A stretch of DNA of 28,587 bases from a virus: positions 1 through 28,587 of IMG/VR virus record IMGVR_UViG_3300018412_000036, one strand, 5' to 3'. The position numbers and the translations under genes are program-made. The notes under the pieces were generated by a model. It searched no databases. It was not told where the DNA came from and was given only the letters and a program-made list of their open reading frames with translations. Of this stretch, positions 4,211-7,420 are shown in pieces (the first letter of the stretch is position 1; the number at the start of each line of letters is the position of its first letter).

Positions 4211-5035
4211 TTATCGAGCGAAAGCGCCGATAAAGGTATTAACTTCGCTACCCTGGAATTTCTCGACAAGAAGATCGCGAAACTCAGCGGCAATCTGTTC
4301 CTGAATAGCTTCCAGCTGGCTTACACGTAAAACCAGTACCGGGCGATCACCTGTGATGATGCTCAGGCGCAATTTGAAAGGACGCTCGGCCAGCCCTTCG
4401 AACGGCACACACTTGAACTCAAACGCCACTGGCATAATGTCTTTAGTTTTGGCTTCCACTGACTCCATCAGAGAGCGTTTGCCGCTAAAGTCGTTATCTT
4501 CAAAGTCAGATGACTGGATGGCTTCGATGGTAATCTTACGCAGTGCAGCAGCCGCTTTTTTTGCCGCGATCACTTCACCATCAGCATCAAAGCCAGTCAG
4601 GTTATCAGCCCAGTCTTCGATCCATTCGGCCAGTTCTTTCTGACCATTACGATCACCATTGACTGCAAGCAGAGCGGAATATGGCGCGGTTTTCTTAAGT
4701 TGGACCTGAGCGGTGTTATCTGCGTGGCCCGGTTGGGTGAGCGTGCCCAGGTTGAGAACGGTGACAGCTTTCATGTTGTCAGCATCAATGAAGCAACTGG
4801 TGCCTGTGGCTGAAAGCTCTTTCGAGTAACGGGCAAAATCTTCAATGCTGGTGGTGCTGAGAACGCCACGGAAGCGGAAACGACCTTCGGCGAAAGTTTC
4901 CAGAGACTGAACTTTTACACCTTCCGGCACTGCCACTGACGTCACGAATAAATTAGCCAGGCGTTCATTAACCTGTTGGCCTAATACCAGGTCACGGACC
5001 TGGCCGATTGCTGATGCATCTAATGTCTGAGACAT
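4211..5035 (-). CDS. yfdQ: DUF2303 family protein, YfdQ-like
   Basis: A 274-residue protein of the DUF2303 family, the size of E. coli YfdQ. Recognisable stretches are [23 protein letters not shown], the [12 protein letters not shown] strand followed by PGHADN, and [11 protein letters not shown]-type helix (here [13 protein letters not shown]). The family is common in the left operon of enterobacterial prophages, always beside YfdP/YfdR-like genes. The biochemical function is not known. The C-terminal half ([20 protein letters not shown]) is beta-rich. The start at 5035 is preceded by AAGGATC. It is followed by a 123-base gap with a strong hairpin. Confidence 0.88.
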
Positions 5036-5080
5036 AACTTATTGATCCTTTGTAATTTAAAAGAGAGGGAATAAAGACGG

Positions 5081-5452
5081 TTAGGACTTAGCGCGAAGCT
5101 TTCCGTCCGGTTCACCAGCCAGGGTAAGGAGCTGGCCCTGATCTTCCTGCAGAATGGTCAGCTTGCCGCCGCGATTGACATACATCGGGGTTTCCGTGGT
5201 GTCTTCTTCGGACGACTTGCCGCGAGGGGTGGGGCGCACATACGCCAGCTTGTGTTTGATCAGTACGCGCTTCTCATCGACAGAGTTGCTCATGCGATCA
5301 AGTTCGAAAGTAAGGGTAACTTTCCCTTTCTGGCCGTTATTCAACACACCGAAAGCTACTTCACTGAGGGCCATCGAAATCTTGTTTTCAAAGACTCCGC
5401 CATCCAGTTCGCCGATGAAATCCGGCACTTTGGTTGCACGTTCATTAGACAT
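5081..5452 (-). CDS. yfdP: YfdP-like phage protein
   Basis: A 123-residue protein starting MSNERATKVPDF; a start three codons earlier is possible. The layout is a beta-rich N-terminal domain (ENKISMALSEVAFGVLNNGQKGKVTLTFEL), a KHKLAYVRPTPRG strand, and a C-terminal tail with MYVNRGGKLTILQED. It is the first gene of the left operon and directly precedes the DUF2303 gene, as yfdP precedes yfdQ in CPS-53. Function is unknown. The name rests on synteny, size and general resemblance. Confidence 0.75.
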   Translation of the reverse strand: MSNERATKVPDFIGELDGGVFENKISMALSEVAFGVLNNGQKGKVTLTFELDRMSNSVDEKRVLIKHKLAYVRPTPRGKSSEEDTTETPMYVNRGGKLTILQEDQGQLLTLAGEPDGKLRAKS

Positions 5453-5502
5453 AGGTATCAACCTCGGGTTAATGCCCCTGCAAGGGCGTTAGTTTCTCCA
5501 CA

Positions 5503-5585
5503 CAACACAGAAGAGCACCTGCGGCTGCAACCGCCCAGGTGGATTGGGTTATGAGCCCGTCGCCTGGTGATGCTCTTGTGTGTTG
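5503..5585 (-). ncRNA. tRNA-like element 1 with initiator-type anticodon arm
   Basis: The outer stem is 7 + 7 pairs with one C-C mismatch (CAACACA-C-AAGAGCA against TGCTCTT-C-TGTGTTG). Inside it are two hairpins. One carries CGGGCTCATAACCC (5559-5546), identical to the anticodon-arm core of E. coli initiator tRNA, including the three G-C pairs and the CTCATAA loop, extended outward by CCAGG/CCTGG. The other is GCGG/CCGC (5534-5521). There is no D arm. Being nearly palindromic it could fold on either strand, but the tRNA resemblance is on the minus strand. It ends about 50 bases before the YfdP-like start. Confidence 0.55.
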
Positions 5586-5677
5586 CGTAAAAAAGAGGGC
5601 GGTAACATCGTACAAAACGGGAAAACAGTGTTACCGCCCCAAAGACTTCTCACAGCTATCGCGTTCCAGCGATTGGG

Positions 5678-5804
5678 TTGTGGTTGTGGGATTCGAACCC
5701 ACATAACGTCCAGCTGGTCCGCATGAGATAAACTGGGTTATGAACCTTGTTTAGAGCTCACCTCCCCATACGAGGGGCGCTCTACCCGATTAAGCTAAAC
5801 CACA
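5678..5804 (-). ncRNA. tRNA-like element 2: acceptor, D and T arms with a ~58-nt insertion
   Basis: Read on the minus strand: a 7-pair acceptor stem TGTGGTT/AACCACA (extended to 9 pairs by GT/AC), then TA, a D arm GCTT-AATCGGGTA-GAGC with the conserved A14 and GG, a C-rich hairpin CCCC-TCGTAT-GGGG, and a perfect T arm GTGGG-TTCGAAT-CCCAC, followed by A and CCC instead of CCA. The anticodon-position loop has only 6 bases, reading CGT in the Thr(CGU) setting. Between it and the T arm lie about 58 extra bases holding a second hairpin (TAAAC/GTTTA) whose loop TTCATAA again shows CAT. It is too irregular for a normal working tRNA. It could be a tRNA mimic, an RNase P substrate or a decayed tRNA. 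Confidence 0.55.
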
Positions 5805-6117
5805 ACGGATAGAGCACTGAGGGAACAAGACGCCTTACGGAGTCATTTGCAGGCGTATCAGCATCTCGCTTATCGCTTACACAGTGCTCTAACCTGTTGT
5901 GTGCAGGGATTGAACCTGCTCCCCCGTGTTTTTTAAGCCGCTCACGGGTACTCTGGGCTTGCTCGTCTTTCCGCGCGGTCAGCGGTCTACTTCCCGCCGT
6001 CACTGCCGTCGAGAGTGCTGGCATCTCACTGACCTGATAACTCCCAGGATCAACTGGAGTGGTTGTTATCGCGACCAAAGCGCCACTATCCAGGACATTT
6101 ATTAGGACCGTCTCCAA
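5782..6117 (-). CDS. Possible small leader protein overlapping tRNA-like elements
   Basis: An open frame of 111 codons from a TTG with GGAAGAG 7 bases upstream. The first ~70 residues look protein-like (VLINVLDSGALVAITTT, then ARKDEQAQSTRERLKKHGG). The rest simply reads through the T-arm-like sequence and element 3 and ends inside the D arm of element 2. I do not recognise the protein. Either a short gene runs into the RNA elements, or the frame is open by chance over conserved RNA. It lies where an N-like gene would sit, but is not basic enough to be a typical N. Confidence 0.35.
   Translation of the reverse strand: METVLINVLDSGALVAITTTPVDPGSYQVSEMPALSTAVTAGSRPLTARKDEQAQSTRERLKKHGGAGSIPAHNRLEHCVSDKRDADTPANDSVRRLVPSVLYPLWFSLIG
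5801..5901 (-). ncRNA. Structured element 3, long stem competing with element 2
   Basis: An 18-pair imperfect stem: CACAAC, GG and TAGAGCACTG at 5801-5819 pair with CAGTGCTCTA, CC and GTTGTG at 5882-5901, leaving one mismatch and one bulged base. Inside is a second stem (ACGCCT/AGGCGT type) with a 15-base loop. The strand 5801-5806 is also part of the extended acceptor stem of element 2, so the two cannot form at once. Confidence 0.5.
5903..5919 (-). ncRNA. Orphan T-arm-like hairpin (element 4)
   Basis: On the minus strand GCAGG-TTCAATC-CCTGC is a canonical T arm with a 5-pair stem and 7-base loop. It is followed by ACACAAC and A, a spacing like a tRNA 3' end, but no GTTGTGT 5' partner or D arm lies upstream, and no CCA follows. 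The downstream ACAAC can pair with the GTTGTGG that begins element 2. Confidence 0.45.
6036..6070. repeat. Hairpin GATAAC/GTTATC
   Basis: Six-base arms GATAAC (6036-6041) and GTTATC (6065-6070) enclose a second inner stem CTCC.CAG/CTGGAG. It lies inside the possible leader gene and adds to the density of dyads in the pL leader. Confidence 0.45.
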
Positions 6118-6192
6118 GTGGTAACTCTTCCAGTCCCGCTAAACACCCGGAGAGATGCTTAACGTGAATGGCTGATTCCCTCGTCTCTTCCG

Positions 6193-6205
6193 AGGTGTCA
6201 CACCT
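6193..6205. repeat. 13-bp dyad AGGTGTcACACCT
   Basis: A perfect palindrome with a single central base, next to a second small hairpin CCTC/GAGG at 6180-6195. It is compact enough to be a protein-binding site, but it does not resemble the GTTT-N8-AAAC operators of this phage. Confidence 0.4.
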
Positions 6206-6347
6206 GATCGCCACGCTGGTGGAACGCTTTCGGGCTTACCTGGCTTGCACATTCCGGCTACCCGTTGGATTAGGGATACTGTCAAGGAATCCCCGGACCG
6301 CTGCGACGCATGTGCCATACGACGTACTACAAGAAACCTTTTACGAT

Positions 6348-6632: not shown

Positions 6633-6660
6633 AGTTTAATTATTCAAACTAAAATGTCAA
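6633..6660 (-). promoter_or_regulatory. Predicted pL promoter
   Basis: On the minus strand a perfect -35 TTGACA (6660-6655) is followed after 16 bases by TAAACT (6638-6633) as -10. The -10 overlaps an operator with the same pattern as those at pR. It lies just beyond the repressor terminator and points into the leader and left operon. Confidence 0.65.
6634..6649. promoter_or_regulatory. Operator OL1
   Basis: A 16-base site of the form GTTT-N8-AAAC (GTTTAATTATTCAAAC), overlapping the pL -10. The same arms and spacing occur at 7397 and 7444 in the pR region. Confidence 0.6.
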
Positions 6661-6742: not shown

Positions 6743-7396
6743 TTATGGGAGATTCATTTCAAGCCTGACGCAGACGCCGACTATCTCGCATGTGTTATCA
6801 ATAGGGATGGGTTTATAGGCAGGGTTAAGAGGCATTAAATACATGTTAGGCCCATCAATCATGAGTTTTTTGATGGTCGAATCACTGGACCCATTCAATC
6901 TTGCTACTACGATTTTCCCACTTATTGCTTCAATATCAGGATCAACGATTACCAACGACCCATCAGGCAACGAAAGACCGGAACCTGCGGGGCTAGACAT
7001 TGAATCACCCGTTACACGCAATGAAAAAGCGTAAGGAGAAACTTTCGCCGTTGTTTCAATCCATTCAGTCACTTCGTCAAGATTTCCTTCAACCATCTCC
7101 TTCCAATGACCAGCCTGCACTGACGACAAAAGAGGCACGCGGCGCCTTATGTCGGGGCCAGGATTTGAGTTGCCGTTTGATTCCTCAATCAGGCCGCCCT
7201 CAGTAAGCCACCTCTCCGTCACGCCCAAAACATCCGCAAGCTTACTCAGATACTCAACGGACGGCTTTGTCCCGCCGTTGACCCATTGGCTAACGGTTCC
7301 TCGAGATGCTCCAGTGGCTTTTATTAAATTGCTGCTCCGCAAATTCAGCGCCTTCATACGCTGGCCGATGCGGTCACTCATATTTTCATTTTTCAT
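6743..7396 (-). CDS. cI: CI-type phage repressor (HTH + S24 peptidase)
   Basis: A 217-residue repressor. The helix-turn-helix is at ~20-45 (RSSNLIKATGASRGTVSQWV), followed by the usual VEYLSKLADVLGV helix. The self-cleavage site is Ala95-Gly96 in SSVQAGHW. The LexA-type catalytic pair is S132 (TGDSMSSP) and K176 (STIKKL), so the protein should be inactivated by RecA after DNA damage. Three in-frame ATG codons exist at 7414, 7396 and 7381. The first lies inside an operator. I prefer 7396, though 7381 (MSDRIGQRM) is possible, and none has a good ribosome binding site, so a leaderless mRNA as for lambda cI is plausible. Divergent from the Cro-like gene. Confidence 0.92.
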   Translation of the reverse strand: MKNENMSDRIGQRMKALNLRSSNLIKATGASRGTVSQWVNGGTKPSVEYLSKLADVLGVTERWLTEGGLIEESNGNSNPGPDIRRRVPLLSSVQAGHWKEMVEGNLDEVTEWIETTAKVSPYAFSLRVTGDSMSSPAGSGLSLPDGSLVIVDPDIEAISGKIVVARLNGSSDSTIKKLMIDGPNMYLMPLNPAYKPIPIDNTCEIVGVCVRLEMNLP

Positions 7397-7412
7397 GTTT
7401 AAAAAGTTAAAC
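7397..7412. promoter_or_regulatory. Operator OR3
   Basis: GTTTAAAAAGTTAAAC, a near-perfect 16-base dyad directly upstream of the repressor start. It overlaps a second dyad, TTAAAC...TGTTTAA, at 7407-7426. Confidence 0.6.
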
Positions 7413-7420
7413 ATATCTTT

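Follow-up and report, generated by a model that had tools for sequence, protein, structure and literature searches.

A conserved tRNA-like fold in the leader of a lambdoid phage and its place among candidate modular non-coding RNAs of enterobacterial phages

Introduction

The closest described counterparts of the element presented here are the prophage small RNAs STnc100 and PasD (RF02076), which are abundant in pathogenic E. coli and whose function is not known. STnc100 and the Pas RNAs are validated by Northern blotting, and it was Hfq RIL-seq that revealed the Pas RNAs (PMC5331693, PMC13192938). A structural kinship between PasD and STnc100 is also reported, and the accessible portion of that source does not mention a tRNA-like domain for either RNA (PMC13192938). 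Phages likewise carry genuine tRNAs, which counter tRNA-cutting defences of the host (PMC10264068, PMC11555353) and are sometimes borne by the linker of the RNA GOLLD (PMC12286853). Our search of the literature, thin on subscription papers, found no published description of a tRNA-like element in a prophage leader.

Genetic context of the element

The window, by which we mean the whole stretch of DNA analysed, comes from IMG/VR, where it forms a virus record 28,587 bases long, and it has a lambdoid gene order. In agreement with the initial annotation, which had placed the element in a transcript leader rather than in a tRNA cluster, it lies within a non-coding leader of ~1.1 kb, flanked by a CI-like repressor gene on one side and by the phrog_204/DUF2303 operon on the other (Table 1). 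By which phages the leader RNA would be transcribed, and when, we infer from gene order and a candidate promoter. The terminator-like hairpin that follows the domain is absent from the list returned by a simple scan. Among named phages, the best matches to the leader DNA include Citrobacter phiNP, Klebsiella KpF5, mEp390, mEp460, SfV and cdtI.

Two other parts of the leader recur elsewhere. A well-conserved non-coding module (6065-6332, minus strand), for which Rfam gives no match, is common to mEp390, KpF5 and the epsilon15-like PAT1, where it sits between the terminase and portal genes; in the P1-like plasmid L059, a similar stretch comes after a tRNA-Ile. Immediately 5' of the long hairpin lies an isolated T-arm-like hairpin (GCAGG-TTCAATC-CCTGC, 5903-5919, minus strand), with similar ones in phiNP (L002).

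Table 1. Coordinates of the features discussed in the text
Feature	Position	Strand	Remarks
CI-like repressor gene	6743-7414	minus	
Candidate leader promoter TTGACA-16-TAAACT	6633..6660	minus	just past the CI-like gene; alone, not above chance
Upstream long hairpin, base CACAAC/GTTGTG	5801..5901	minus	3' strand shared in part with the 5' strand of the acceptor
tRNA-like domain, including the 2-bp acceptor-helix extension (G-2:C74, U-1:A73)	5677..5806	minus	cmscan, RNAalifold, pair counts
Acceptor 5' strand TGTGGTT	5798..5804	minus	pairs with 5679-5685 AACCACA; 5678 is A73; no CCA after
D arm GCTT-AATCGGGTA-GAGC	5779..5795	minus	cmscan, RNAalifold, counts
Extra hairpin 1, CCCC-TCGTAT-GGGG	5764..5777	minus	100% paired, two covarying pairs
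Elongated anticodon-position arm TGAG/CTCA + TAAAC/GTTTA + GG/CC	5724..5760	minus	RNAalifold, counts
Anticodon-position 7-nt loop TTCATAA	5744-5738	minus	with U33
Third hairpin, variable-arm position, self-complementary 8-mer CCAGCTGG	5707..5722	minus	alignment, RNAalifold
T arm GTGGG-TTCGAAT-CCCAC	5686..5702	minus	cmscan, RNAalifold, counts
Intrinsic-terminator-like hairpin GGCGGTAACA..TGTTACCGCC-TCTTTTTT	5588..5639	minus	3' of the tRNA-like domain; read directly; forms a hairpin in the computed fold
Next hairpin module	5499..5590	minus	directly before the first gene
CGGGCTCATAACCC, ~120 nt downstream, identical over 14 nt to the anticodon stem-loop of the E. coli initiator tRNA (metZ)	5559-5546	minus	
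phrog_204 gene (unknown function), first gene 3' of the leader	5081-5461	minus	
DUF2303/phrog_210 gene, next after phrog_204	4211-5035	minus	

Anatomy of the tRNA-like domain

Searching the window with cmscan, the tRNA model RF00005 matches exactly positions 5678-5804 of the minus strand with 43.9 bits, where the gathering score is 29 (E 2e-6 for the window, 1e-7 for the leader), and no other Rfam family matches anywhere in the window. This Infernal call and the sequences of the arms bear out the tRNA-like fold with acceptor, D and T arms that had been proposed initially. ARAGORN with default settings reports neither tRNA nor tmRNA in the window, a miss that is expected given the 127 nt of the element.

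The arms follow one another as in a class II tRNA, with one hairpin added. Therefore, the anticodon loop first described as one base short is the six-base loop of the extra hairpin. The hairpin reading CAT, which had been assigned to an insertion, does exist; it is not a second anticodon-like hairpin, being the anticodon-position arm itself with a full 7-nt loop. In almost every homologue read, the 8-mer of the third hairpin is self-complementary (CCAGCTGG, CCGGCCGG for most relatives, CTGGCCAG and G-U variants); with few independent changes, this palindrome is only a hint of an RNA dimerisation site.

The domain departs from a decoding tRNA in several respects. In place of a four-arm cloverleaf of normal length with a 5-bp anticodon stem, it has seven helices in 127 nt, including the extra hairpin, and its anticodon-position stem spans ~11 bp with internal loops. 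The closing helix of the elements sharing this fold, hereafter class 1, is 9 bp long and continues through U-1:R73 and G-2:C74: R73 is able to pair with U-1 in 23 of 23 sequences, and position 74 is a C pairing with G-2 in 21 of them. Class 1 encodes no CCA. Since the would-be C74 is paired in the closing helix and CCA is not encoded, the element is unlikely to be a decoding tRNA and probably translates no codons. Its anticodon-position loop, TTCATAA in the window, is ATCATAA or TTCGCAA in relatives, and most class-1 members have [TA]TCATAA with U33.

Conservation of the fold

The fold is common to 22 other distinct relatives from lambdoid and P1-like phages. A scan for the inner motif returned 21 viral contigs and, among genomes, Yersinia massiliensis and Raoultella ornithinolytica; a match in Desulfobacula (L294) was rejected as a homologue on inspection. 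Further records, from Serratia, Citrobacter, Enterobacter, Salmonella and Cronobacter, came from a blastn comparison with plasmids and phages; the majority are 86-99 kb long and several are P1-like. The covariance model, applied afterwards, gives these records, which were found without it, 98-155 bits; class 1 altogether scores 98-158 bits, against at most 35 bits for real tRNAs and other slot types (see below). Pattern scans favour the motifs they use, and their counts are to be read as minima. Among 296 genomes in the order searched, class 1 turned up once, in the seed genome itself, and is therefore rare in reference genomes. Its contexts comprise the lambdoid leader of the window, the late region of P1-like phages by lpa/pacA (L059, L302) and a position upstream of the c1 repressor (L303). 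The P1-like plasmid L059 was matched by blastn against E. coli genomes, and its RefSeq record carries the class-1 element (5003-5131) as a 129-nt tRNA-Met assigned by PGAP, probably a misannotation.

Left unguided, RNAalifold predicts 35 pairs in seven helices from 15 distinct sequences, recovering the acceptor, the D arm, the extra hairpin, the long arm with its 7-nt loop, the third hairpin and the T arm; a pair count by hand agrees (99.4% paired). Across 23 sequences, in an alignment fitted to the structure of the covariance model, 99.5% of cells are standard pairs and 9 pairs are changed on both sides. Covariation amounts to 0.250 versus 0.130 in shuffles, and none of 500 shuffles reaches the covariation score or the paired percentage, these controls leaving phylogenetic relatedness in place; sliding the partners by 1-3 columns reduces pairing to 42-51%. 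The long arm is the clearest case, with five versions across homologues (TAAAC/GTTTA, TACGC/GCGTA, TACCC/GGGTA, TAACC/GGTTA and TAATC/GATTA), and the acceptor is compensated in the Serratia plasmid L300 (TGTGACG/CGTCACA). While the inner segments TATCTCATGCGG and GACGTTAT are nearly invariant, the acceptor and T stems vary with compensation. Free drift of the arms, named in the initial annotation as the outcome that would speak against the fold, is not what the homologues display: their changes compensate each other. Relatives in many phages of gut bacteria keep the same fold despite changed letters, and the shape itself is therefore under selection; comparison among homologues shows that the three inner helices are maintained along with those of the acceptor, D and T arms. 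In thermodynamic folding, the window copy alone does not adopt the consensus fold, which lies 3 kcal/mol above the minimum.

A slot with several occupants

In a candidate modular non-coding RNA of phages, an upstream hairpin is followed by GTTGTGG[slot]CCACAAC, and the class-1 domain is one of several contents of this slot. Comparison of the sequences shows that the slot recurs after the long hairpin in phages whose surrounding genes differ. A scan with the 3' strand of the hairpin returned at least 119 stretches. GTTGTGG/CCACAAC is its own reverse complement, and about half of the slots in one scan were antisense duplicates; the totals of that scan are not used here. The upstream hairpin retains the same topology, with changed but still complementary stem letters, in L191, L305, L016, L025 and L041. 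In the window, the computed energies of the hairpin-closed and tRNA-like states are similar, and which of the two prevails varies with the length of flank folded; once the terminator is included, the base of the upstream hairpin beats the acceptor.

The occupants are diverse. Some are 73 nt long with normal geometry and no U33 (L011, L025), and others measure 81 nt (L016, L021) or 89 nt (L041). There are forms with a D-loop hairpin (L083, L093, L107), a further form (L063/L087) and forms reduced to a T arm (L099, L106). Phages resembling phiV10 (L064, L101 and others) carry in the slot a true tRNA-Arg(UCU) scoring 69-72 bits, with a free G73-CCA encoded and without continuation of the helix through -1/-2. 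The anticodon regions differ by slot class, reading CAU, CGC in L137/L180/L190, or CCC without U33 in L011/L025.

Finally, the slot of some members holds STnc100-like domains. In one STnc100-like group, the D-position loop GGCTGAT is complementary over 5 nt to the T-position loop AGATCAGCA. In L175, both loops are changed at two pairs (GTCGA/TCGAC versus GCTGA/TCAGC), and the stems at both positions covary. Complementary D- and T-position loops are also seen in L006 and other STnc100-like slots. These loops suggest that STnc100-like RNAs form the tRNA elbow with kissing loops; with 14 distinct combinations of arms and a single double change behind it, the case is only suggestive.

A Citrobacter phage-plasmid (L301, 2000-2650) carries a chain made of a true tRNA(CAU) with CCA, a hairpin, an STnc100-like slot, a second hairpin and a class-1 element. 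Its STnc100-like slot has a tRNA-like D stem (GCTC/GAGC) yet kissing loops, and the chain looks like an intermediate.

An initiator-loop module downstream

The 14-nt match to the initiator anticodon arm in the next hairpin module was reached in none of 2000 shuffled leaders (single-base shuffles against one target, picked after the match had been seen). Among relatives, the stems of this module vary and covary, and the loop and its flanks are constant, a constancy that is not independent evidence because the scan selected for the motif. The 21-mer around CGGGCTCATAACCC occurs in at least 119 viral stretches, and the motif reappears in L083/L109/L131, where it lies in the upstream hairpin at its tip, and in L201/L207. 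In L229, L207 and similar records, the second hairpin of the module has loops, e.g., ACTCCTAA, that resemble the anti-Shine-Dalgarno sequence and could base-pair with the next gene's GGAG.

Possible roles of the domain

As we read it, with moderate confidence, the element is a tRNA-like structural domain, genuine and conserved, that belongs to a large modular non-coding RNA of phages and would serve as a scaffold in a stable trans-acting RNA; it would be neither a decoding tRNA nor a product of decay. The tRNA-like shell would be a compact, nuclease-resistant scaffold that closes an RNA domain and would present to a partner the inner arms, which are strongly conserved and include the CAU loop. 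As is thought for its Hfq-bound relatives STnc100 and PasD, the RNA would be stable and act in trans, and the shared GTTGTG strand may toggle it between the hairpin-closed and tRNA-like states. This scaffold role is favoured because the architectural relatives STnc100 and PasD are Northern-validated and the Pas RNAs come from Hfq RIL-seq. Since the window itself has no STnc100 match, the link to Hfq small RNAs rests on the shared slot architecture and on a sub-threshold match in SfV.

VapC is known to cut initiator tRNA, and the shell with its CAU loop could be a bait diverting such an anticodon nuclease, or another tRNA enzyme, from host tRNAs during infection. We regard this as unlikely, albeit worth keeping in mind. 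The [TA]TCATAA loop with U33 of most class-1 members fits the idea, as does the exact initiator stem-loop copy, which lies within covarying stems and whose motif occurs in three contexts; these recurrences are no proof. Phage tRNAs that oppose tRNA-cutting defences provide a precedent (PMC10264068, PMC11555353). Conversely, the anticodon regions differ among slot classes, some slots have no tRNA-like loop at all, and the long stem would present the loop unlike a tRNA does.

It is rather more doubtful that the element is a processing signal, at which RNase P (5804/5805) and RNase BN/Z would split the upstream RNA from the operon mRNA and release an RNA of ~127 nt. The intact acceptor, D and T arms and the U at -1 would suit these enzymes, and the bona fide tRNA-Arg(UCU) with encoded CCA must be processed in the same slot of phiV10-like phages. 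Unlike that tRNA, class 1 extends its helix through U-1:R73 and G-2:C74 and encodes no CCA, and its unit already finishes with a terminator-like hairpin.

It appears quite improbable that the element is a functional tRNA(CAU) carrying an unusual insertion, which would receive Met or Ile and take part in translation, perhaps after removal of the extra arms. Its 7-nt loop with U33 and CAU and the PGAP annotation of the L059 homologue as tRNA-Met are outweighed by the ~11-bp stem with internal loops, the extra hairpin between D and anticodon arms, the lack of an encoded CCA, the pairing through 74 and the CGC loop of one group; moreover, we know of no bacterial enzyme that would remove the extra arms.

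Although phages often integrate in tRNA genes and relatives hold a true tRNA-Arg in the slot, a functionless passenger, be it a decaying tRNA gene or an attP copy of a host tRNA 3' end, is contradicted by compensatory changes over 23 sequences, by conservation of the D and inner arms and by carriage on P1-like plasmid prophages, which do not integrate at tRNAs, and can practically be dismissed: all arms are present rather than just a 3' tRNA fragment, and none of the neighbours tested in the window (phrog_204, DUF2303 and the CI-like repressor) is an integrase.

More broadly, and only tentatively, enterobacterial temperate phages might possess modular non-coding RNAs that form one family, with domains built around a tRNA-like elbow that has either canonical D and T loops or STnc100-like kissing loops, and with added copies of the initiator anticodon loop; such RNAs would imitate tRNA to engage the translation or tRNA machinery of the host, perhaps switching between two folds via GTTGTG. 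That the closing domain of STnc100 and PasD shares a slot with tRNA-like folds and real tRNAs gives these RNAs a structural frame and points to testable partners, namely Hfq, RNase P, tRNA enzymes, tRNA-cutting defences and the 30S P site. Automatic annotation can call such domains tRNA genes, as in L059, or miss them entirely.

Comparison with known systems

Like the put RNA of HK022, the element is a structured RNA in a lambdoid left-operon leader. Antitermination of the put type was considered and rejected: the AGAGC..GCTCT hairpin is absent from the HK022 stretch examined, and no two-stem put structure was recognised in the window.

The Rfam models of GOLLD and ROOL have no match in the window (cmscan). 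In contrast with these RNAs, the element belongs to enterobacterial lambdoid, epsilon15-like and P1-like phages and contains a diverged tRNA-like domain, not a full tRNA; the tRNAs of GOLLD linkers are a parallel in kind, by analogy, and not evidence of membership.

In tmRNA, as in the present RNA, a tRNA shell closes a larger RNA. However, tmRNA lacks a D stem, carries a CCA end and is charged with alanine, whereas the element has a D arm and no encoded CCA; ARAGORN and cmscan detected no tRNA-like domain with a tag reading frame in the window.

With canonical class II tRNAs (RF00005), the element shares the acceptor, D, anticodon-, variable- and T-position arms in that order, as well as A14, the GG of the D loop, a TTCRA.. 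T loop and U33. It differs from them by the extra hairpin between the D and anticodon positions, the ~11-bp anticodon-position stem, the 9-bp closing helix that pairs position 74 and the absence of an encoded CCA.

Finally, STnc100 differs from class 1 in having no tRNA-type D or T loop, the GGCTGAT/AGATCAGCA subgroup having complementary loops instead, and cmscan finds no RF02076 match in the leader of the window at E values up to 1. The SfV copy aligns to RF02076 over its full length, below threshold (39.5 versus 47 bits), and the closing helix, the abutting T-position hairpin, the 3' terminator and the prophage location occupy the same positions as in SfV. STnc100/PasD and class 1 are thus alike in being prophage-borne and in occupying the same slot, with a closing helix, a D-position hairpin and a T-position hairpin that abuts the 3' closing strand, followed by a terminator.
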